Origin: a virus
Length of the DNA: 39,619 nt
Strand: one strand, 5' to 3'
IMG/VR virus record: IMGVR_UViG_3300037076_000112
Coordinates: 1-39,619 of that record
In this document: piece after piece, positions 3,714 through 38,476 of the stretch
Layout of the letters: each line of letters begins with the position of its first letter
How positions within the stretch are numbered: the stretch's first letter is position 1
Notes under the pieces: model-generated
The model's input: only the letters and a program-made list of their open reading frames with translations
The model's database searches: none
Told to the model about the DNA's origin: nothing
Made by a program: the position numbers and the translations under genes

Positions 3714-5756
3714 TTAGGTGATCGTGATCGTGATCGAGGTTGGCGATGGGAGGGAGACGGCCGCCGGCGTGAAGGTGTAGGCCGGGACACTGGCGAGGGA
3801 CTGCTTTCCGCCGCCCCAGAGATTCACGGAGACGAGCTTGATGTAGAGCAGCGCCCCCAGGCGGGCCGCAGGCACCGCAACCCTGGCCAGGGCGGCGTCC
3901 ACTCGCGTGAAGGTCTTCCCGCTGAGGTGAGACGCCTGGGTGGTGCCATAGAGCCCACGGACCAGCAGAGTCTGGAGGGTGTATTTGTTCGCGGCCGTGA
4001 GAGTGGCGTCCTGGTAGGCGAACAGCTCCCCGTCACACCAGCAGAGGCTCTGACCATCCCGCGGCACCTGGGCGGCCACGCTCTGCAGCGTGCCTTTGCT
4101 CACAGTGAGATCCACTGCGCACGTCGAGGTGGTGTCCTGCTGGGTCGAACCGGCCGCCATGTTGGCCGTGAGCACCCCGTGCCGCGCGGGCGCCGAGATC
4201 TGGCCGGCCAGCGCGTAGGTGGTGCCGTCAGACGATGCCCACACCTCGCAGCCGCCCCAGAGCGCCCCGCCAGAGGTGGCGATCATGACCTCCGGCCCTC
4301 CGGATGCGCTGAAGAGGGCCGGCACGTCGAAGATCACGGGCGTGTTGGCATTGCCCGGATCCGCGTTGACGTTGGGCGCCGTACCATCGGTGGTCTGGGT
4401 CGTGTAGAGGGTCGCCGTGCCAGTCCCGAAGGGCCATTCCTCAGCCGTGATGGTGAGGCCCTCCTCTTCGGTGCCTTCATCCGGCATGTCGATGCTCACG
4501 ATGCGGCAGATCTTGTGGTCCAAGCCGATGAAGGGCTCGGTGAGGGTGACCAGGTCGACCATGGGCTCGAGCAGAATGTATTTCCAGCCGACCCTGAAGG
4601 TGTAGGTCCGGCGCACGTTCACGTTCCGCTGGGCGCGGATCCGGCTGACCTGGAGCGCGTGGGCAGCCCGGGTGATCGAGTGGAGCACGATGGGTGAGTC
4701 CTTCTTCGTGCCGTTCTGGGCCACGTCCACCGGCTCGGGGTCGTCCAGGATGCTGATGTTGTAGGCGTTCAGCCTGTCGATGAACTCAACCGGGACGCAG
4801 TTCTTCACGTCCTGGGGGCTGGTGATGCAGACCGAGATCGGATCCTCATCCGGGCTGTCCACCAGGAAGTCGTCGACACCCAGGTCGTAGAGCGGGGTCG
4901 TGTTCGGGGTGAAGGTGGTCCCGTTGGCCGTGAGGGGCTGGTCGCCATAGGGGACGATTTTGAGGACCATCGAAGTGGCGCCAGCGGTCCAGACGGCCTC
5001 CGAGTTGGTGGCGTCCAGCAGTTCCTGCAGGTGGGCCGTCGCGGGCTTCTGTTCCGTGAAGGCGGGGCTCAGCACGAAGCCCATGGCCTGGCAGTAGGTC
5101 GCGAAGCTGGCTGCCCCGGTGACCAGGTCAGCGATCTGCGCCGAGTTCCAGCCCGCGCCATAGTAGGGATTCGTCAGGAAATCGGGGATGATGTCGCTCG
5201 GCTTGGCGTCGTAGGCTGCCAGAGCGTTCGGATCCTGCTGGGTCGCGTAGAATCCGACCACCTCAAAGGAGTCGTTCTTCATGGTCCCGGAGGTGCCGAG
5301 ATCAATGGCGGCCGCGCAGATCAGGGCCGTGCCGCTGTACCCGATGGCCTTGGTGGGGTGCTTCGACGTCCAGGTTGGCCAGGCCGTCTGGGGCCTCGTG
5401 CCGGTGTAGAAGGTCAGCCCGTAGCCGCTGAGGCTCCCGATCTCCTTATCCCGGAAGACCTGGTTGATGCCGACGACCGGGCCCTCACAGAGCGCCAGGA
5501 TCACGCCGGCCGTGTAGGTGTAGGTCGTGTTCGTCATCGTGGAGCCACCGCCGCCACCCTTGCCGACCTGCTGGCTGCTGGTGTGGGGCACGGCCGTGAA
5601 GTCGTCGTAGTCGACCAGGTTCGCGGGGATGCGGTTGGTGCCGTAGACGATGGGCAGGACCCCGCCATAGGACGAGGTCTGGAGCTGGATCCCAGCCAGG
5701 ACGTCTTCGGTGGTGCTGGTGCTATGCCCGCGGCCGCCCATCAGGCACCTCCCCAC
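3714..5756 (-). CDS. Tail tip / host-specificity protein (GTA- and J-like)
   Basis: A 680-residue protein whose start (MGGRGHSTSTTED, then GGVLPIVYGTNRIP) is typical of tip proteins that open with a short call to a pre-existing ring interface. The body contains VGWKYILLEPMVDLVTL and repeated beta-type segments as in the central hub of lambda J-like and gene-transfer-agent tip proteins. It is shorter than lambda J (over 1100 residues), as expected where the receptor-binding part is on separate downstream genes. It overlaps the NlpC/P60 gene by 16 bases. In the assembled virion it should close the tail tube below the tape measure. Family placement rests on position and general features. Confidence 0.78.
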   Translation of the reverse strand: MGRCLMGGRGHSTSTTEDVLAGIQLQTSSYGGVLPIVYGTNRIPANLVDYDDFTAVPHTSSQQVGKGGGGGSTMTNTTYTYTAGVILALCEGPVVGINQVFRDKEIGSLSGYGLTFYTGTRPQTAWPTWTSKHPTKAIGYSGTALICAAAIDLGTSGTMKNDSFEVVGFYATQQDPNALAAYDAKPSDIIPDFLTNPYYGAGWNSAQIADLVTGAASFATYCQAMGFVLSPAFTEQKPATAHLQELLDATNSEAVWTAGATSMVLKIVPYGDQPLTANGTTFTPNTTPLYDLGVDDFLVDSPDEDPISVCITSPQDVKNCVPVEFIDRLNAYNISILDDPEPVDVAQNGTKKDSPIVLHSITRAAHALQVSRIRAQRNVNVRRTYTFRVGWKYILLEPMVDLVTLTEPFIGLDHKICRIVSIDMPDEGTEEEGLTITAEEWPFGTGTATLYTTQTTDGTAPNVNADPGNANTPVIFDVPALFSASGGPEVMIATSGGALWGGCEVWASSDGTTYALAGQISAPARHGVLTANMAAGSTQQDTTSTCAVDLTVSKGTLQSVAAQVPRDGQSLCWCDGELFAYQDATLTAANKYTLQTLLVRGLYGTTQASHLSGKTFTRVDAALARVAVPAARLGALLYIKLVSVNLWGGGKQSLASVPAYTFTPAAVSLPSPTSITITIT

Positions 5757-7691: not shown

Positions 7692-9976
7692 CCGATCCTC
7701 CCATTGCGGGCGGCTTCGTGGAGGACGTCGCGCAGCCCGCCCTGGTTGCGGCTGAGGGCCTGCTTAAAGCTCTTGGCGTCCATGGCGTGGATGTGGAAGT
7801 GCATGCCGCCCGCTCCGCCGTTCTTGCCGAGGTTGCGGATTGTGTTGGACTCTTCCTTCGGGAGGACCATCTCCTCTTCATGGAGCTGGGCCATCGGGTT
7901 CATGCCGGAGGGGATGGACCAGCCGTGCTCGGCACTGCCGATGCTCGACTTCATGCCCATCACGCCAGCCAGCACCGCGGCGCCGGCGGCCAGGGCGATG
8001 GCCCAGCCGTAGACCGGGATCGAGGCAGCAGATGCCGCAGCGCCGGATCCAGCCACCACGGCGTTGCCTGTGGCCTGGGTGGTGGCACTGGAGATGCTGG
8101 CGGCCTTCTTGATCATCTCGCCCTTGACCCACTCCATGGCCATGTCCATGGCCAGCTTCATGAAGCCCTGGGAGATCGACTGCATCATGCTCTGCATGGC
8201 CGAGGCGAAGCTCTGGGTCTTGGTGATCAGGCCGGTGAGCGCGTTGCCCAGGCTGCTGGTGATGACTGTGGCCACCTGGGTCCAGGTCTTCATCTCCTCC
8301 TGGGCCGCCTGGGTGTTGATCTTCTGGATGTCGAGGTTCGACTTGCGCTTGGCGGCCAGGATCCGGTTCTGGATCTCGGCGTACTTCACCGGGTCGTCCT
8401 TGTGCAGGGCCTGCTCGGCGAGGAGCGCGTCGATCTCGATCTTCAGTTCCTCGGCGTGGAACTTCTTCAGCTCGGCCAGCTCCTGCGCGTGGGTGATCTG
8501 GCCCAGCTGCACGGCGGCCGCCAGGTTCGCCCGCTTCACCTCGATGGCGTTCTTGGCTGCGGCCATCTCATCCTGGCGGGTCAGCTTGGCCAGGTCGGAG
8601 GTCTGCTTCTCGGCCTTCTTCGTCTCTTCGTCCTGGGCCTTCTGGATGGCCTTGCCGTCCTCAGCCATCTTCAGGCGGATCGCCACCCACTCGGCGCTGC
8701 CCTGCTTCGTGAGTGCCAGCTTGCCAGCCCAGAAGGCGCGCTCATCGGCCTTGGCCATCTCGGCCAGGTCGCCGTCCTTCTCGGCGAGCAGGGCCTTCTG
8801 CTTCGTCAGCTCGGCCTCCCACTCGGCCACGAGGTTGGGCTTCGCCTTGGGCTTGAGGTCGTCGCCGCCCAGGGTATCGCCCTCGGGGGCCTTGGACTTT
8901 TTCTTCGGGGCATCGGTCCAGAGCTCTTTGGAGTTCTTGGCCAGGTCGGACCAGGTCTTTTTGATCCCCTCGGCCACGGCCTCGTCCTCGGCCTTGATGT
9001 CGCGCAGCCCCTGCTTCCCGGCCTCTACCGCCCCTTTGAAGTCGCCGGTCATGACGGCCATCATCACCTTGCCGAGGGTGGTGAAAATCGTGATCAGCTC
9101 GTCGAACACCGCCGTGACGACGATCGTGATGGTCTCGATGACGGCCTTGAGCACGTAGAAGACCTGCACCACGCCCTTGATAGCGTAGCCAAAGCCCTCG
9201 GCCATGGCAGGGCCGTACTCGCCGAAGAACTGCCCGAGCTTGAGCAGGATCGGCAGCAGGACGTTCCCGACCTGGATCTGCAGGCTCTGGGTGACCAGGG
9301 ACACGTCCTTCATCGCGTCCTTGTAGGCCCGGGTCTGGGCCGCGCCCTCGGGCCCGACGACCAGGTTGTATTTCTTGGCCTTCTCGGCGCTCTCCTCGAG
9401 GAGCTCCTTGCTGATGCGCAGCAAGGGCCCAAGGTCGCCCACGCGGGCACCGAACATGGCCTGGGCGGCCACGTTGCGGTCGGTGCCCGCCTTCATCGTG
9501 TTCAGCTTCTCGATGGCGTCCACCATGACTTCGCTGGTGTTCCGCCACTCGCCGTTCGAATCCTTGGTGGAGACGCCCAGCTTGTCGAAGGCCTCGCTGT
9601 TCCCCCGCATCTGCTTCGTCATCTTCATGGCGATGCCGGTGAAGGTGTCCCCGCCGATGCCCACGTGGTGGAGGGCGACGGCGAGGCCGGAAGCATCCTC
9701 GGAGGTGATGCCCAGGGTCCGGCTGAGCTTCATGACCTCGCCGTTCCACTCCAGCGTCTTGTCGATGGCCTCCTTGAACATCGCCCCGCCGGCGAGGATG
9801 CCACCCAGGGCGCCCATGGTGCTCATCAGCTTCTCGAAGCCCTTGCCGATGCCCTCGATGCTGTGATTGATCTTCTCGGCCGTCTCCTGGGTGCCCTTGT
9901 GAGCGGCACCCATCTTGTCGAGGAAGTCCGCGACGACGGCCTTGAATTGGACGACTACTTCATTTTGGTCAGACAC
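7688..9976 (-). CDS. Tail tape measure protein
   Basis: A 762-residue protein, by far the longest in the tail block. It has a helical N-terminus (residues 1-120) and a hydrophobic multi-helix part near residues 230-300 (VVQVFYVLKAVIETITIVV and following). A long charged coiled-coil spans roughly 370-600 with many AEEL/KKA-type heptads, and a second hydrophobic stretch lies near 650-690 (YGWAIALAAGAAVLAG). This is the architecture of tape measure proteins, which set tail length and enter the membrane during DNA ejection. The start is a GTG at 9976, overlapping the frameshifted chaperone product by eight bases. It lies just after the tail assembly chaperone, as in lambda. Confidence 0.9.
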   Translation of the reverse strand: MSDQNEVVVQFKAVVADFLDKMGAAHKGTQETAEKINHSIEGIGKGFEKLMSTMGALGGILAGGAMFKEAIDKTLEWNGEVMKLSRTLGITSEDASGLAVALHHVGIGGDTFTGIAMKMTKQMRGNSEAFDKLGVSTKDSNGEWRNTSEVMVDAIEKLNTMKAGTDRNVAAQAMFGARVGDLGPLLRISKELLEESAEKAKKYNLVVGPEGAAQTRAYKDAMKDVSLVTQSLQIQVGNVLLPILLKLGQFFGEYGPAMAEGFGYAIKGVVQVFYVLKAVIETITIVVTAVFDELITIFTTLGKVMMAVMTGDFKGAVEAGKQGLRDIKAEDEAVAEGIKKTWSDLAKNSKELWTDAPKKKSKAPEGDTLGGDDLKPKAKPNLVAEWEAELTKQKALLAEKDGDLAEMAKADERAFWAGKLALTKQGSAEWVAIRLKMAEDGKAIQKAQDEETKKAEKQTSDLAKLTRQDEMAAAKNAIEVKRANLAAAVQLGQITHAQELAELKKFHAEELKIEIDALLAEQALHKDDPVKYAEIQNRILAAKRKSNLDIQKINTQAAQEEMKTWTQVATVITSSLGNALTGLITKTQSFASAMQSMMQSISQGFMKLAMDMAMEWVKGEMIKKAASISSATTQATGNAVVAGSGAAASAASIPVYGWAIALAAGAAVLAGVMGMKSSIGSAEHGWSIPSGMNPMAQLHEEEMVLPKEESNTIRNLGKNGGAGGMHFHIHAMDAKSFKQALSRNQGGLRDVLHEAARNGRIG

Positions 9977-30770: not shown

Positions 30771-31325
30771 ATGCCGATCCGCACCACCGAACAGCCCCAT
30801 ATCAAGCCCATCACTGGATTCCCTTTCTATGGAGTTTCCGCTGATGGGCGAGCCTGGACTTGCCGTGTCCCAGGGCAGAAGACGGCGACTCGGTCGAACT
30901 GGGAATGCATGTTTGGTGGCTTCCGAACGGGCTATCCCTGCGTTGGGATCCGCGATGAGGAGGGCGTCCGGCACTACTTCAGCGTCCACCGTCTGGTTGC
31001 CGAAGCATTCCTGGCCCCAGTCGAAGGTAAGACCCTCGTGAACCACAAGAACGGCATCAAGACCGACAACAGGGTCGAGAACCTTGAGTGGTGCGACTAC
31101 ACGGAAAACATGCGCCACGCCTTTGCCAATGGCCTCAATCAGGCTTCGCGCGGCGAAGACAAGGGTAATTCGAAGCTGACTGAAGCGCAGGTCCTGGAGA
31201 TCCGCAGGCTGCGAAAGACCGGGCTCTTTCATCGGGAGATCGCCAAGCAATTCGGCGTCTCGTATTCATCCATCCAGCTGATTTGCCAAGGCCTCAGGTG
31301 GGCATGGCTTAAGGAGATCGCATGA
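30771..31325 (+). CDS. HNH homing endonuclease with DNA-binding C-terminus
   Basis: A 184-residue protein. The N-terminus (GFPFYGVSADGRAWTC) is NUMOD4-like. YFSVHRLVAEAFLAP and LVNHKNGIKTDNRVENLEW are the HNH core. GNSKLTEAQVLEIRRLRKTG with IAKQFGVSYSSIQLICQG is a NUMOD/HTH targeting domain. Its first residues MPIRTTEQ mirror MSIRTVEQ of the next gene, which starts within its last four bases. It is first in the plus-strand operon after the operator region. Confidence 0.88.
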   Translation: MPIRTTEQPHIKPITGFPFYGVSADGRAWTCRVPGQKTATRSNWECMFGGFRTGYPCVGIRDEEGVRHYFSVHRLVAEAFLAPVEGKTLVNHKNGIKTDNRVENLEWCDYTENMRHAFANGLNQASRGEDKGNSKLTEAQVLEIRRLRKTGLFHREIAKQFGVSYSSIQLICQGLRWAWLKEIA

Positions 31326-31732
31326 GCATCAGGACCGTAGAACAGTCCGCACCAGCCACCCTCGCCGAGTTGATTCCCCAGCTCACGATGCTCACCACCG
31401 ACCAGCCGACCACCGCCGAGATCGAAGAAGCGCTGATCAAGATCGTGCCGGCCATCACCCGTGCGCTGGCTGACTGGCTCCGCAGCCGCCACGAGATCGG
31501 CCGGGATGCCCACCTCGCGGCCGTCATGGACCGGCCCGTGGGCTCGGGCCAGATCCCTGCCACGCCCACCTTGACGGCCCTGGTCGACGCCTTCGCCGAC
31601 CACCACCAGCGCGACCATGCCGGCGAGATCCCCGTCGAGAACGAAGCCGAACGGGAATACCTCGACCAGGTCGAGAGCGCGCACCCCCACATCTTCGCCC
31701 CCGACCTCACCCCCATGGAGAAGCCCGCATGA
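31322..31732 (+). CDS. Hypothetical protein of the recombination operon
   Basis: A 136-residue protein starting MSIRTVEQSAPATLAEL, mainly helical (IEEALIKIVPAITRALADWL) with an acidic C-terminus ending PMEKPA. No family recognised. It overlaps the HNH stop and the Sak4-like start by four bases on each side, so it is co-translated with the recombination genes. Confidence 0.7.
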   Translation: MSIRTVEQSAPATLAELIPQLTMLTTDQPTTAEIEEALIKIVPAITRALADWLRSRHEIGRDAHLAAVMDRPVGSGQIPATPTLTALVDAFADHHQRDHAGEIPVENEAEREYLDQVESAHPHIFAPDLTPMEKPA

Positions 31733-33192
31733 GCGTCCAGATCAAGAAAGCAGTCCGCGAGCGCGTCTACCTGAAGCTCGTCGTCACCGGCCCCAGCGGG
31801 GGCGGGAAGACCCTCGGCAGCATCGGCATCGCCAAGGGCCTGGCGCCCACCGGAAAGATCGGCGTCATCGACTCCGAGAACCGGAGCGCCAGCTACTACG
31901 CCAGCCGCTTCGACTTCGATGTGATCGAGCTGGAGGCGCCCTTCACCACGCAGAAGTACCTGGAGGCACTCCGGGCCTTCATCGAGGGCGGCTATGAGGT
32001 GGTCGTCATCGACTCTCTCACCCACGAGTGGGCGGCCTCCGGAGGCATCCTCGATCAGAAGGCCGCCAAGGATTCAAGGGGGGGAAATTCGTTTTCCAAC
32101 TGGAACGAGATGAAGCAGCTCCACAACAAGTTCGTGGAAACCCTGCTCCAGTCCCGGATCCACGTGGTGTGCACTCTTCGCTCGAAGATGGAATATGCCC
32201 TGGAGCAGGACGAGAAGGGCCGCAGCACCGTCCGCAAGGTCGGCCTGGCTCCCATCAGCTCCGACGGCATGGAGTACGAGTTCGGCGTGATGTTCGATGT
32301 GGAGCGCAACAGCCACCTGGCCATCGCCTCCAAGGACCGCACCGGCCTGTTCGAGGGCCGCAGCCTGAACCTGGACGAGCGGGTGGGCAAGGAACTGGCT
32401 GAATGGCTGGCCTCCGGCGCCGAACTGGCGCCCGTGCCCCCCACCGGTGGCGGCCAGTCGGGCCCGGCCGCTGCTGCCCCGACGAAGGCGGCCACGCCGC
32501 GCCCTACCCAAGCCGGTGCGAGCGCTGCGGCAAAGAAGTCCGCCCCGGCTTCGCCATCTGCCGGAAGTGCTGGAGCATCCTCGCTCCCCACGCCCGCTAC
32601 CGATGAGCCCCCCGCCGAGTGGGTGGCCGCCATGGTCGAGCTGTGCGAGGTCACCTTCGGCATGGGTGAGCCAACCCGCACGAAGCTCATCGCGCAATGG
32701 GAATCCGAAGGCCCCGCCAGCCTGGCCGCCCTGCGCACCGAGGTGGTCAGCCTCCGCTCGATCATGCACCCCGAGTCGATGGCGCCCACCACCGCCGGCG
32801 AGGTCATCAACCAGCTGCCCCGCCCCGAGGTCCAGCAGATCAGCCAGGAGGCCAACGACTTCGTGGAGGGCGTCGACCCAACGCCGGCCGACACCGACGA
32901 GGCCGCCGGCGGGATCAGCCAGATCCAGTACGAGGCTCTCAACACCCTTATCGGCGCTTTCAAGATCAACCGCGACGCCCTGCGGTCCTGGGCCTTCAAG
33001 TCCGGCCACCTGCTGCCCGGCGCCAACGGCCCCACGCTCGCCCGGATGAAGGCTGAGGAGTTCGAGAAGCTCCGCACGAAGCTCTGCAACCAGGCCATCG
33101 CGGCGAAAGGTGAGACCTGGTCCCAGCGCACCGTCCGAATTATCAATTCTTCCCCCATCACCACCTACCAGCCCGTTGCGGCTGCCTCTTAA
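31729..33192 (+). CDS. Sak4-like RecA-fold ATPase, possibly a fused or frameshifted gene
   Basis: A 487-residue reading frame. Residues 1-230 are a RecA-like core: Walker A VTGPSGGGKT (19-28), KIGVIDSENR (43-52), Walker B VVVIDSLTHEW (91-101), and VVCTLRSKMEY, as in Sak4 single-strand annealing ATPases of phages. Residues 237-293 are an Ala/Pro/Ser-rich linker whose DNA in the -1 frame encodes a zinc ribbon. Residues 294-487 are a helical domain with ISQIQYEALNTLIGAFK and ending SPITTYQPVAAAS, like C-terminal parts of annealing proteins. It is unusually long for Sak4. See the separate entry on the hidden frame. Confidence 0.83.
   Translation: MSVQIKKAVRERVYLKLVVTGPSGGGKTLGSIGIAKGLAPTGKIGVIDSENRSASYYASRFDFDVIELEAPFTTQKYLEALRAFIEGGYEVVVIDSLTHEWAASGGILDQKAAKDSRGGNSFSNWNEMKQLHNKFVETLLQSRIHVVCTLRSKMEYALEQDEKGRSTVRKVGLAPISSDGMEYEFGVMFDVERNSHLAIASKDRTGLFEGRSLNLDERVGKELAEWLASGAELAPVPPTGGGQSGPAAAAPTKAATPRPTQAGASAAAKKSAPASPSAGSAGASSLPTPATDEPPAEWVAAMVELCEVTFGMGEPTRTKLIAQWESEGPASLAALRTEVVSLRSIMHPESMAPTTAGEVINQLPRPEVQQISQEANDFVEGVDPTPADTDEAAGGISQIQYEALNTLIGAFKINRDALRSWAFKSGHLLPGANGPTLARMKAEEFEKLRTKLCNQAIAAKGETWSQRTVRIINSSPITTYQPVAAAS
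32437..32606 (+). other. Hidden -1 reading frame encoding a zinc ribbon inside the Sak4-like gene
   Basis: Starting at the run of six C (32437-32442), the frame -1 to the Sak4 gene reads RCERCGKEVRPGFAICRKCW then SILAPHARYR and stops with TGA at 32606. Two CxxC pairs make a textbook zinc ribbon. In that frame about 25 of 29 codons have G or C in third place, against about 17 of 29 in the Sak4 frame, so this is the frame under coding selection. The Sak4 frame resumes the coding signal right after, where GTG (32623) or ATG (32632) could be starts. Either one base is missing or extra in the C run, or a ribosomal frameshift is used. Confidence 0.68.
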
Positions 33193-33204: not shown

Positions 33205-33600
33205 ATGAGCTATTGCCCCGAAGGCGTCTCCGAAGTCACCATCGGCCCCGGCACCCACCCGGTCTTCATGACCGGCATCAAGCGGATCACCGACCGCGAG
33301 AAGCTGGCCAAGTTCAGCGCCCAGGCCGTGTTCATCGCCACCTTCAAGTCCGTGGAAACGGCCGTGGAGAAGGACATGGTCATCAAGTTCTCCGGCGCGT
33401 CCTCCGACCACTACGCCGGCCTGAACATCGATCGCCTGCACCTGGCCGCCGGCCTCGAGGCCCCCGCGGCCGGTGAGCGCCTCGACCTCGAGAACCTGGT
33501 CAACCTCCTGGATGGCGTGGAGCTGCTCCTCGAGGTCAACGACAAGGGCTACGCCAACGCCGTCGTGATCCCCGAGCAGCCGGGCGAGGAAGTGGTCTGA
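33205..33600 (+). CDS. Hypothetical protein after the annealing ATPase, possible SSB substitute
   Basis: A 131-residue protein starting MSYCPEGVSEVTIGPG. Mixed beta/alpha with IATFKSVETAVEKDMVIKF and a C-terminus of LLEVNDKGYANAVVIPEQ plus acidic EEVV, which resembles the acidic tail of single-strand binding proteins. Position right after a Sak4-like gene is where SSB or DUF669-type partners are found. No motif settles it. Its stop is shared with the start of the low-GC gene. Confidence 0.62.
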   Translation: MSYCPEGVSEVTIGPGTHPVFMTGIKRITDREKLAKFSAQAVFIATFKSVETAVEKDMVIKFSGASSDHYAGLNIDRLHLAAGLEAPAAGERLDLENLVNLLDGVELLLEVNDKGYANAVVIPEQPGEEVV

Positions 33601-33602
33601 TG
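33592..33602 (+). repeat. 11-bp direct repeat, left flank of the low-GC gene
   Basis: GTGGTCTGATG spans the stop-start junction before the low-GC gene and recurs exactly at 34374-34384 across the junction after it. The repeat distance is 782 bases, one gene. Both junctions keep a TGATG overlap. Confidence 0.88.
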
Positions 33603-34382
33603 AAAACCACCCTGGAAACAATCACCCCAACCATGGCCGAAAAATACCTAGAAAAGAACCACCAAGGCAATCGCCATTTAAGAGTAACCCATGTTGGAAA
33701 TCTTGCTGCGGCGATGTCCCGTGGGGAGTGGATTCCAAATCATCAAGGAATCTCGTTTGATGTTCTTGGGAATTTGAATGACGGTCAGCACCGGCTCCGA
33801 GCCATTATTCAACACGGGCATCCGATTCAGATGAATGTTACTCGGGATGTCCCAGTTGATTCCTTCAAGACTGTCGACATTGGTATCAAAAGATCAGTGG
33901 CCGATGTTCTTGGTGGCTCTGTGCGCAAGAATGCCATTGGCGCTTTTTTATCCAGGATCTTGTATGGAAATTTTGGCGCCACACCAACAGGAATAGAACA
34001 GGTTATTAAGTTCTTTGAACCCGAAATTGAAATGCTAATCGCGCATTGCGGATCAACAAAAAAGACGTTTAGCAGTTCTGCTGTTCAGGCCGCTGCTGTG
34101 TTCCGTCTGCGCATGGACTCAAGCGCTGCTGATTACATCTTGAACACTTACAGAAGCATGGTTTTGGGCCATTTGAATGAACTCCCATCGGTGGCGGTTT
34201 CCTTCGTTAATCAAGTAAACAACAGGGCGATCAGTTCTTCTCGTGGTGAAGATTTGTTTGTTAGAGCTTTCATAACTTTTGATTACCGCAAATCTGGTAT
34301 TTCAGTTGTCGCCTACAAAGACAAGGCTCCCACGATGAGCCTTGTTCGGAACCGCTTCTGCACAGCTATCGGGGTGGTCTGA
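33600..34382 (+). CDS. Low-GC DGQHR-motif (ParB-like) protein, recently inserted
   Basis: A 260-residue protein. HLRVTHVGNLAAAMSRGEW, FDVLGNLNDGQHRLRAIIQH and VDSFKTVDIGIKRSVADVLG follow the ParB/sulfiredoxin-like fold of proteins with a DGQHR motif (residues about 62-67), common in phages but of unclear function; some relatives bind DNA or nucleotides. Codon use is starkly different: A/T-ending codons (aaa, gat, ttt, att) dominate, whereas both neighbours end almost always in G/C. The 11-bp repeats at both ends mark an insertion that left neighbouring genes whole. Confidence 0.83.
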   Translation: MKTTLETITPTMAEKYLEKNHQGNRHLRVTHVGNLAAAMSRGEWIPNHQGISFDVLGNLNDGQHRLRAIIQHGHPIQMNVTRDVPVDSFKTVDIGIKRSVADVLGGSVRKNAIGAFLSRILYGNFGATPTGIEQVIKFFEPEIEMLIAHCGSTKKTFSSSAVQAAAVFRLRMDSSAADYILNTYRSMVLGHLNELPSVAVSFVNQVNNRAISSSRGEDLFVRAFITFDYRKSGISVVAYKDKAPTMSLVRNRFCTAIGVV

Positions 34383-34384
34383 TG
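34374..34384 (+). repeat. 11-bp direct repeat, right flank of the low-GC gene
   Basis: Second copy of GTGGTCTGATG, covering the stop of the low-GC gene and the ATG of the next. Removing one copy and the gene would leave the 131-residue gene's stop joined directly to the ATG at 34382 in the same TGATG overlap. Confidence 0.88.
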
Positions 34385-35086
34385 GACGCCCTCGCCACCA
34401 TCCCCGAGGAGGGCTCCCTCCTCATCCTCCGTGCCACCTCCTTCCCCGTGGACGTCCAGGGGGTGAAGATCAACACCCCCGAGGAGGCCCAGGCTGCCGT
34501 TGACCAGACCCGCGAGATCAAGGCCCTCGCGGCCCAGATCGAGGAATACCGGAAGAGCCTGACCAAGCCTCTGGACGACGAGAAGAAAGCCATCATGGAC
34601 ACCTTCCGCCCAGCCACGGAGTTCCTGGCCAAGTGCGAGCTCGTCCTCAAGGGCAGCATCACCACCTTCAACCAGGAGCAGGCCCGCATCGCGGCCGCTG
34701 CCGCTACTGAGGCTCGGCGCCTGGAGAAGATCGAGCTGGACCGCCAGGCCGAGGAGCAGGCCGCGTCTGAGGCACTCCTGGCCCAGGCCGAGGAAGCTGC
34801 CCTGGCCGGCGACAGTGCGGCCGCAGAGGCACTGGAAGAGAAGGCCATGGCCGCACAGGCCCAGGCTGCCCCCATCGCAACCTATGTGCCCCCGGTGGCC
34901 ACGAAGCCTCGCGGCGCGTCCACCACGAAGATCTGGAAGTGCAGGGTGGTCGACCCCACCAAGGTCCCCGACCAGTTCAAAACCATCAACGAAAAGGCGC
35001 TCGATGCCTATGCCAAGGCCATGAAGCAGGACGCCAAGGTCGATGGCTGCGAGTTCTACTCCGAAGACTCCCTTTCCATCCGCTGA
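34382..35086 (+). CDS. Coiled-coil protein of the recombination block
   Basis: A 234-residue protein. After a beta-type first 40 residues comes REIKALAAQIEEYRKSLTKP and LDDEKKAIMDTFRPATEFLA, then a long Ala/Glu coiled coil (residues 100-170). The C-terminal KIWKCRVVDPTKVPDQFKTI and NEKALDAYAKAMKQDAKVDG domain is of a sort seen in phage proteins beside RecT/Erf/Sak genes. It probably assists recombination or DNA handling. G+C-rich codon use resumes here after the low-GC gene. Confidence 0.78.
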   Translation: MDALATIPEEGSLLILRATSFPVDVQGVKINTPEEAQAAVDQTREIKALAAQIEEYRKSLTKPLDDEKKAIMDTFRPATEFLAKCELVLKGSITTFNQEQARIAAAAATEARRLEKIELDRQAEEQAASEALLAQAEEAALAGDSAAAEALEEKAMAAQAQAAPIATYVPPVATKPRGASTTKIWKCRVVDPTKVPDQFKTINEKALDAYAKAMKQDAKVDGCEFYSEDSLSIR

Positions 35087-35093
35087 GGAACCC

Positions 35094-35936
35094 ATGACCG
35101 CAACCAATCCCCCCGACCGCACCGCCATCGATACCGTGCTGATCAAGCTCAACCTGGGCTGCCAGTACATGGAGATCAACCACCCGTCCAAGGCTGACGT
35201 GAAGAAGGCCTCCGAAGCCGCCAAGGACGCCGCGGACATCCTGAAGGCCTGCTTGGTCCTGCTGGACCACGATATCTACGTCGTCCAGGAAGCACCCCCG
35301 GCTCCTGGTGTGCCCCTGTTCAAGGATTCCGGAGAGCCGAGCAGGGGCGCGGAAGTGCCTGCTCCCGAGCCTACGCCCGAGCCCGCCAAGGTTCTTCCCA
35401 CACTGGGCATCATCGACGTTGAGGTCGTCCGCAAGTTCAAGGTGGGAGACAGGGTAAAGGAGGTCCTCTGCCAGGAAGACCTCGACGCTGGCGAGAAGCC
35501 CCGCACTGGGGTCATCGATGAGGACGATGGCAGCACCGAGGACAACGCTCCCTACTTCGTGACGTTGGATGGCGATGGCTACAGCTCCTGGTTCGACGCC
35601 GCCGAACTGGAGATGGTCGAGGCCGGCCCCGAACTGACTGCCGATCAGAAGACCTTGGCCGAGCCCTTCCCTAAGGGCACCAAGGCCGAGCAGAAGGCAG
35701 TCTTCGGACAGCGCCTCACCACACTGAAGGACATCTTCTGCCAGCGTCTCGACCTGGCCGGCAGCACCGCGACCCTGGACTCTCAACTCAAGGAGTTCCG
35801 CCCCCACCGCAATGCCTGGGCAGCTGCCTGGAAGGCCGACGCCAAGGCCACCTGGCCGAAGCTACTGGCTGCCATCGTCGAGGCCAACACCCTCGCCAAC
35901 AAGTTCACCAGCTGGGCGCCCGAGGTGGCTGCATGA
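35094..35936 (+). CDS. Hypothetical protein of the early plus-strand operon
   Basis: A 280-residue protein; the ATG at 35094 has TGAGGAACCC ahead, so the shorter start is chosen. Residues 1-60 are helical (MEINHPSKADVKKASEAAKD); 80-110 Pro-rich; 120-185 a small beta-domain with RKFKVGDRVKEVL and SSWFDAAELEMVEA, similar to SH3-like folds; the C-terminus (200-280) is helical. No family recognised. It overlaps the pentapeptide gene by four bases. Confidence 0.7.
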   Translation: MTATNPPDRTAIDTVLIKLNLGCQYMEINHPSKADVKKASEAAKDAADILKACLVLLDHDIYVVQEAPPAPGVPLFKDSGEPSRGAEVPAPEPTPEPAKVLPTLGIIDVEVVRKFKVGDRVKEVLCQEDLDAGEKPRTGVIDEDDGSTEDNAPYFVTLDGDGYSSWFDAAELEMVEAGPELTADQKTLAEPFPKGTKAEQKAVFGQRLTTLKDIFCQRLDLAGSTATLDSQLKEFRPHRNAWAAAWKADAKATWPKLLAAIVEANTLANKFTSWAPEVAA

Positions 35937-36847
35937 GCCAGGAGAAGCCCACCCCCGAAGAACTGAAGCAGATCCTCGCTGACCACCTGCTCTGGCGCCA
36001 GTCCTACGGCGCCAAGGGCAAGCAGGCCAACCTCGTCAGGGCCAACCTCGTCAGGGCCAACCTCGACGGGGCCAACCTCGACGGGGCCAACCTCGACGGG
36101 GCCAACCTCGACGGGGCCTACCTCGTCAGGGCCAACCTCGACGGGGCCTACCTCGTCAGGGCCAACCTCGTCAGGGCCAACCTCGCCGGGGCCAACCTCG
36201 ACGGGGCCTACCTCGTCAGGGCCAACCTCGACGGGGCCTACCTCATCAGGGCCAACCTCGTCAGGGCCAACCTCGCCGGGGCCAACCTCGCCGGGGCCTA
36301 CCTCGTCAGGGCCAACCTCGCCGGGGCCAACCTCGACGGGGCCTACCTCGACGGGGCCTACCTCGACGGGGCCTACCTCGTCAGGGCCAACCTCGACGGG
36401 GCCCGTGGTTTCGAGCCCTTCATCTGCGTCGGACCGATCGGCAGCCGCCAGGCCTACACCACCGTCTTCCTCTACCAGGACAAGATCGTCTGCGGCTGCT
36501 TCACCGGCACCCTCGCGCAATTCGAGTCCAAGGTGCGCAGGACCCACGCCGACAACCCGGCGCACCTGGCCGAATATATGGGCCTCATCGCCTATGCCAA
36601 GGTGCTCCGCGAAGCGCAGCCCGAGCGCCCCGCCCAAGAGCCGGAACCGCCAGCGCCCTTCGCTGAAGGTGCCCGGGTGCGTCTCACGGCCGCAGGCAAG
36701 GAGAAGTATCCCTGGGCCACGAGCGACCAAGGCGACGTCACCAGCTGCGCCGGCGGCTGGACCCGCATCGAGTTCGACGACTGCTACATGAGCTTCGCCA
36801 ATGAGTTCGTGGAGCGCGTCGAGGAAGCCGAGAAGGCCGCCTCATGA
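35933..36847 (+). CDS. Pentapeptide-repeat protein with C-terminal domain
   Basis: A 304-residue protein. Residues 32-156 are 25 perfect pentapeptides of types ANLVR, ANLDG, ANLAG, AYLVR, AYLDG and AYLIR, which would form a right-handed quadrilateral beta-helix with Leu in the central position. A domain with PFICVGPIGSRQAYTTVFLY and CGCFTGTLAQFESKVRRTH follows (residues 160-215), then a Pro-rich hinge and an SH3-like end (ARVRLTAAGKEKYPW). Such helices may mimic DNA, as in Qnr and MfpA, so gyrase or nuclease inhibition is thinkable. The 15-bp repeats are so alike that recent expansion is likely. The long ORF on the opposite strand is a shadow. Confidence 0.86.
   Translation: MSQEKPTPEELKQILADHLLWRQSYGAKGKQANLVRANLVRANLDGANLDGANLDGANLDGAYLVRANLDGAYLVRANLVRANLAGANLDGAYLVRANLDGAYLIRANLVRANLAGANLAGAYLVRANLAGANLDGAYLDGAYLDGAYLVRANLDGARGFEPFICVGPIGSRQAYTTVFLYQDKIVCGCFTGTLAQFESKVRRTHADNPAHLAEYMGLIAYAKVLREAQPERPAQEPEPPAPFAEGARVRLTAAGKEKYPWATSDQGDVTSCAGGWTRIEFDDCYMSFANEFVERVEEAEKAAS
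36026..36400 (+). repeat. 25 tandem copies of a 15-bp coding repeat
   Basis: Units are gccAACCTCGTCAGG, gccAACCTCGACGGG, gccTACCTCGTCAGG and close variants, with no indels. The near-identity at synonymous sites points to recent slippage or unequal exchange, so copy number may vary in a population. Confidence 0.95.
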
Positions 36848-37966: not shown

Positions 37967-38476
37967 ATGATCCTCACGCAGCAGCAGCTCATCCTCGCGC
38001 TCCGAGCCCTCAAGCCCGAGCCGATCCGGGTGTGCAGCCTGACCATCCACGCCTGGATCAGGGCAGGGTGCCCCACGGTGGCCAACGGCAAGCGCCCCAG
38101 GTTCAAGCTGGATGATGTCTTGGCCTGGGTCAGGCTAGGCAAGGCGAAGCCCCGGACCCAGCAACGCAGGGCAGGGGACACGAACCCGAACGTCCTGCGC
38201 CAGATGAAGCTGAAACTGGCTGAGTGCCGTTGCGAGGTCTGCGGCTGGGGCGCATCCAGGGAGACCTTGAACCGGCTGTTCAACAAGCGTGTGACTGCCG
38301 TCGAAATGCATCACATTCTCCCGGTCCGTGATGGTGGTGGCGACTGGGCCTACAACCTCATCGCGCTCTGCCCCCAGTGCCATTGGATCGCCGACAGGCT
38401 CAAGGGCCTCACCTCCAGAGAAGAAACCCAATCGAGGGTCCGAGAGATCCTCGACCAGTTCAGGGTGGCGTCATGA
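37967..38476 (+). CDS. HTH-HNH endonuclease next to the integration module
   Basis: A 169-residue protein. Residues 1-55 hold a helix-turn-helix of the MerR/excisionase sort (CSLTIHAWIRAGCPTVAN, FKLDDVLAWVR). Residues 86-145 hold the nuclease: CRCEVCGWG (Cys89, Cys92), EMHHILPVRDGG (His115/His116), NLIALCPQCHW (Cys135, Cys138, His139). The start ATGATCCTCAC resembles the next gene's ATGAACCTCAT. It could be a homing enzyme that targets the xis start, or a sequence-specific nuclease. Confidence 0.84.
   Translation: MILTQQQLILALRALKPEPIRVCSLTIHAWIRAGCPTVANGKRPRFKLDDVLAWVRLGKAKPRTQQRRAGDTNPNVLRQMKLKLAECRCEVCGWGASRETLNRLFNKRVTAVEMHHILPVRDGGGDWAYNLIALCPQCHWIADRLKGLTSREETQSRVREILDQFRVAS

Follow-up and report, generated by a model that had tools for sequence, protein, structure and literature searches.

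A 260-aa gene that interrupts a recombination operon in a viral genome, and whose product carries a DGQHR motif, is probably a recently acquired accessory early gene that entered that operon by short-homology recombination, its exact point of entry being the translation-initiation region that links two coupled genes. The DNA analyzed, called the window below, is the IMG/VR virus record IMGVR_UViG_3300037076_000112, positions 1 to 39,619. The operon starts on the + strand with an AAA_24 ATPase gene (31729-33192; Pfam AAA_24, E 4e-15; phrog_1366, E 2.5e-81) of weak Sak4-like similarity (phrog_124, E 2e-5), and continues on the same strand with a 131-aa gene of no known family (33205-33600, 3' end GTG GTC TGA), the inserted 260-aa gene (33600-34382, of the DGQHR-motif, ParB/sulfiredoxin-like family phrog_5931) and a gene for a 234-aa coiled-coil protein (34382-35086; phrog_10477, labeled exonuclease in PHROGs, E 3e-23). 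As the first-pass annotation had noted, an exact 11-bp direct repeat, GTGGTCTGATG, brackets the 260-aa gene at 33592-33602 and 34374-34384 (both + strand). No further copy, with up to one mismatch permitted, occurs in the window. Both copies cover a TGATG stop-start overlap: the left one contains the stop of the 131-aa gene and the start of the 260-aa gene, and the right one, which is contiguous with the empty site of a related phage (L003, see below), contains the last two codons and stop of the inserted gene together with the start of the coiled-coil gene. The hexamer GAGGAA at 33586-33591 (+ strand), likewise present in the relatives L002 and L003, reads as the likely ribosome-binding site of the native junction and would now serve the inserted gene.

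The 260-aa gene has a GC content of 0.465 and a GC3 of 0.47, against GC3 values of 0.93 in the upstream and 0.86 in the downstream neighbor. Codons ending in A or T account for 53% of the gene versus 6% and 13% of its neighbors, so the contrast in codon use is real, albeit calling the gene "A/T-ending" was somewhat too strong. Because 61 left-maximal repeated 11-mers are found at a similar spacing (400-1500 bp) in the window outside the pentapeptide gene, the 11-bp length of GTGGTCTGATG is by itself weak proof of an insertion. The unusual feature of the repeat is its register, both copies lying across a gene's start codon; among 448 control genes in comparable loci, only 3 show a start-spanning repeat that is 10 bp or longer. 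The 771-bp insert between the repeats has neither a start nor a stop codon of its own and is in frame with both sides, a comparison of its ends as inverted repeats gives 6 matching bases of 25, and it consists of a single ORF of a family other than transposases. A scan of positions 33300-34700, covering sigma-70 type promoters only, revealed neither a promoter-like site nor a forward terminator, and the gene thus lacks the promoter and terminator of its own that would mark a moron.

Related phages provide the empty site, and that of L003 is the decisive check on the repeat. In L003 (IMGVR_UViG_3300022555_000146), both neighbors are present (proteins 92% and 84% identical to those of the window, the former also 92% identical in L002) and are joined by one copy of GTGGTCTGATG. 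In a blastn comparison the alignment stops at 33602 of the window and resumes at 34374, with an overlap in L003 of exactly 11 bp (8348-8358), so that 11 native bases are exactly duplicated in the window and the target sequence is fully retained. With one repeat and the gene deleted, the window again has a single stop-start overlap, as the first-pass annotation had predicted, and differs from L003 at 9 of 131 bases; the relative lacking the gene and carrying one repeat copy, which had been set in advance as the object of a search, is therefore at hand. Single junctions are likewise found in L006 and L007 (TGATG) and in L008 (TAATG), those of L007 and L008 differing in sequence from the junction of the window, and no DGQHR family member was found in the records of L002, L006, L007 and L008, which are possibly fragments. 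Scans of viral contigs for the junction pattern returned chance matches only, apart from L002 and L003. The presence of a single junction in empty relatives favors insertion over loss, and the recent insertion of the 260-aa gene, with a stop-start overlap preserved on both sides as first proposed, is confirmed by sequence comparison with these phages. The 5213-bp contig of L002 stops exactly on GAGGAAGTGGTCTGATG (5197-5213), where occupied and empty versions diverge, possibly owing to an assembly break in a mixed population of the two.

The window site is not the only one to have received a member of the family. At the next junction of L003, whose counterpart of the window site is empty, lies another DGQHR-family gene (9071-9892, GC 0.45 in a locus of 0.64) with the 9-bp start repeat ACCCATGAC at both ends, and in the window the corresponding start-codon region is an empty site with a single copy of ACCCATGAC (35090-35098, + strand). 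Identity is 39% between the two DGQHR proteins, against 84-92% between the products of the genes around them. In L017, a third and more distant phage, yet another member is located further along a similar operon. In a tree of 58 members the genes of the window, L003 and L017 do not form one clade, with modest branch support, and the path from the window gene to that of L003 is about 1.9 changes per site; to judge from these comparisons, the three look like separate acquisitions rather than one relocated gene. The first-pass description of the gene as mobile therefore holds in the comparative sense, members being found at different junctions in relatives. Nothing points to a self-moving element: no transposase was found, and the insert ends are not inverted repeats.

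Other differences from these relatives were seen elsewhere in the window. An HNH_3 gene (30771-31325) lies inside the 5' end of the next gene (31322-31732), whose counterpart in L002 and L003 begins MPIRTTEQSAP; in the window the start MPIRTTEQ now belongs to the HNH_3 gene, and the gene after it begins with MSIRTVEQSAP, a recoded version supplied anew (16 of 24 bases identical). A 169-aa gene with an HNH domain (37967-38476) shares only its first 55 residues with L003 and L006, which suggests a domain swap or an HNH fusion, and the repeat region of a pentapeptide-repeat protein (35933-36847) matches L003 in several registers offset from one another, which suggests that the number of repeats varies.

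The same habit recurs in unrelated phages. In L057, a family member sits between recT (PF03837, E 7e-43) and a YqaJ exonuclease gene (PF09588, E 2e-23), at the start codon of the latter, flanked by 11-bp AAGCATGAAAA repeats, and in its relative L134 the gene is absent and both flanks meet at one start codon. Identity between L057 and L134 is 95% over the first 60 bases from the start but 67% over the last 60 bases before it, and the 3' end of the L057 gene resembles the leader that precedes this exonuclease in L139 and L141, as though it continued into a duplicate of the downstream leader. Among mycobacteriophages, Cambiare has a DGQHR gene in the slot before recE, Antsirabe an HNH gene, FlagStaff and Pinnie other genes and Sneeze no gene, and homology on the left stops at the same ATGA where homology on the right begins; across the cluster-G-like mycobacteriophage records L014, L096, L100, L102 and L103, this one slot is either empty or occupied by a DGQHR, HNH, HTH or other gene. 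Of 58 non-redundant members, 14 have a start-spanning repeat of 7 bp or more, compared to 29 of 448 other genes from the same loci (p 9e-5), and repeats of at least 9 bp were found for 5 of 58 members and 4 of 448 control genes (p 0.0015); with the window left out the counts are 13/57 (p 2.5e-4) and 4/57 (p 0.007), all of these figures being indicative since the loci are the best 80 hits rather than a random sample and the control genes come from a crude gene caller. In GC-rich loci, 16 of 43 members and 0 of 81 long control genes have a GC content more than 0.10 below that of the flanks, again an indicative figure. In a same-strand gene call, the families that lead among the two nearest neighbors on either side are SSB, Sak4, RecE-type exonucleases, RecT, NinB and Holliday-junction resolvases. 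The best reading of these loci is that phage recombination operons have repeatedly acquired DGQHR-family genes at their translation-initiation regions. Mobility is not universal in the family, as one large group (20 loci) has its family member in shared, stable flanks with no composition gap. Two phages considered as clean empty-site pairs, Vibrio 1.165 and Pseudomonas Kassivere, were rejected because the comparisons show replacements, as was NEU2024 versus PaTs-2, in which left homology stops a few bases before the start codon. In Pseudomonas phage Kassivere (L009, 3900-4860), promoter-like leaders of TTGACA type precede both the DGQHR gene and the gene after it, and the DGQHR gene there looks like a stand-alone cargo unit.

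The window protein matches phrog_5931 (E 7.8e-35, residues 2-212). The analysis covered 80 homologous loci and a 38-row alignment in which D61, G62, H64 and R65, and further D93 and R98, are invariant. Pfam contains no family for the window protein and revealed no nuclease among the 38 members; the PADLOC defense models gave no match, a PDB sequence search was negative, and the DndB model PF14072 scored 11.6 bits, below the 29.1 required. NCBIfam at E 0.01 returned nothing for the window protein, its DGQHR model TIGR03187 weakly matching 2 of the 38 members. An AlphaFold2 model computed from the 38-row alignment (pLDDT 92) found as its top PDB structure match ParB with CDP (6sdk; prob 0.94, E 0.04), with a TM of 0.31-0.38 that places the match at domain level only, followed by KorB and Noc (prob 0.69 and 0.63), the three matches (E 0.04-0.2) being fold-level only; ParB/Sulfiredoxin entries were also among the weaker viral matches in BFVD. 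The N-terminal part is thus likely to adopt a ParB/sulfiredoxin-type fold, as predicted from the model, and the LxDGQHRLxAI motif, invariant here, is the counterpart of the phosphate-binding box of this fold (PMC4619093, PMC12704722). We infer that this ParB/sulfiredoxin-like factor probably binds nucleotides, associates with DNA and works together with the recombination module.

As to how the gene arrived, the native junction, with its ribosome-binding site, stop and start, would now start the inserted gene, GAGGAA having been kept ahead of the new start, and the second GTGGTCTGATG provides the last two codons and stop of the new gene plus the old downstream start. With this placement translation could pass through both genes, the downstream one presumably relying now mainly on the TGATG overlap. 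The likely route would be recombination between two phage genomes at short stretches of matching start-codon sequence or, alternatively, within a downstream gene shared with the donor, with phage recombination enzymes rather than a transposase as the probable agents. A stop-start or RBS-start junction is a short sequence common to many phage genes, and since recombination at such junctions would keep both genes translatable, survivors would cluster there. For the second copy of GTGGTCTGATG, target duplication and donor-borne homology yield the same picture. A direct search of viral contigs revealed no close relatives of the window protein, and one genome scan only four members of about 35% identity, so that no donor emerged; the nearest relatives, less than 40% identical over their full length, are too distant for the crossovers to be reconstructed.

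The same repeats could also have been produced in other ways. If the gene were ancestral and had been lost in relatives by deletion between the repeats, recombination of the 11-bp copies would yield exactly the L003 junction, but four relatives are empty, two of them (L007 and L008) with junctions of their own, and the composition of the 260-aa gene is strongly mismatched, and we rejected this reading as the most improbable of all. Scarcely more credible is a transposon-like insertion with an 11-bp target duplication and a transposase acting in trans: it would account for the exact duplication of native bases with no loss of target, but an insert devoid of its own start and stop would then have kept the reading frame at either end, its termini do not form inverted repeats, and the other insertions of the family vary in repeat length while all lying at start codons, so that this model was rejected as well.

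Homing is somewhat more probable, although we consider it unlikely. Here the DGQHR family would be a homing-type selfish gene that, like free-standing HNH genes, is copied into an empty start region after its ParB-fold product has cut or nicked it, which agrees with the mobile distribution and AT-richness of the family, with exact insertions that interrupt the junctions seen empty in L003 and L134, with the slot that is taken by an HNH gene in mycobacteriophage Antsirabe, and with the nuclease activity reported for ParB-fold proteins (review, PMC4619093). HNH, GIY-YIG and LAGLIDADG motifs were not found, however (no Pfam nuclease match in 38 members), the six invariant residues fit an NTP-binding box, and the insertion-site sequences vary among phages, the window and L003 members even occupying different sites within one phage group. 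The broader proposal, a shade less probable again, is that phrog_5931 is a self-spreading ParB-fold class whose targets are the regions where translation of phage recombination genes is initiated; it would thus form a start-codon homing system with no relation to the known families of homing endonucleases. Accessory early genes of phages often act against host defense. The insert may be a defense or anti-defense gene kept by selection, a claim about function that is compatible with acquisition by short-homology recombination and that the likeness of the DGQHR motif to DndB and GmrS (PMC4619093) speaks for. We regard this role as doubtful, if less so than homing, given the negative PADLOC and Pfam searches, the weak NCBIfam matches in 2 of 38 members and the recombination genes that recur as neighbors; the "defense or anti-defense cassette" of the first-pass annotation, which moreover has no promoter or terminator of its own and lies in a recombination operon, is not borne out. 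Acquisition by short-homology recombination at the start codon remains our preferred explanation.

How genes enter phage operons without breakage is an old question, because most phage mosaic boundaries show no short repeats. Here, one gene family is found in occupied and empty versions in three phage groups, with base-exact boundaries at start codons beside recombination genes, and these pairs lead to the testable hypothesis that short homology at start codons, or a nuclease acting there, drives gene-by-gene swapping. They also point to an unstudied, widespread phage protein of predicted ParB fold that is linked to recombination modules.

In phage T4, the mob and seg genes are free-standing homing endonuclease insertions between phage genes. 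Free-standing HNH genes precisely inserted between phage genes (PMC3706429) resemble the present case in that a single foreign gene lies precisely between genes, is absent in relatives and shares its slot with several unrelated genes, but the window protein has a predicted ParB/sulfiredoxin-like fold and no HNH motif. Closer to the window event, which to judge by its sequence is of a kind already known from mycobacteriophages (precise insertion between direct repeats), are gene 68 of Island3, with a 3' end common to it and the gene upstream, of which the relative Brujita has one copy, and the 1.35-kb insert of LRRHood between 29-bp repeats that are single in Cali (Pope et al., 2011, PMC3029335). 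In each, one or a few genes are present in one phage and absent from a close relative in which the direct repeat is single, and the Island3 repeat, like that of the window, is located where the inserted gene and the one upstream have their 3' ends in common; those repeats, however, are 29 bp and about 50-60 bp long rather than 11 bp centered on a stop-start overlap, and unlike these inserts the DGQHR family is found again and again at start codons, many of them in phages that are unrelated. With the ParB-CTPase/sulfiredoxin fold proteins, including DndB and GmrS (PMC12704722, PMC4619093), the window protein would share the predicted N-terminal fold and a DGQHR/GxxR-type phosphate-binding box, but it is not a member of a curated Pfam family and its C-terminal helical half is family-specific. 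Our literature search, which covered a set of open-access papers, found no description of a non-HNH, ParB-fold family that inserts repeatedly at start codons beside recombination genes, and the family-wide insertion habit appears to be undescribed so far. It is this habit that is added here to phrog_5931, a family of unknown function in PHROGs that the window protein matches over residues 2-212 (E 8e-35).
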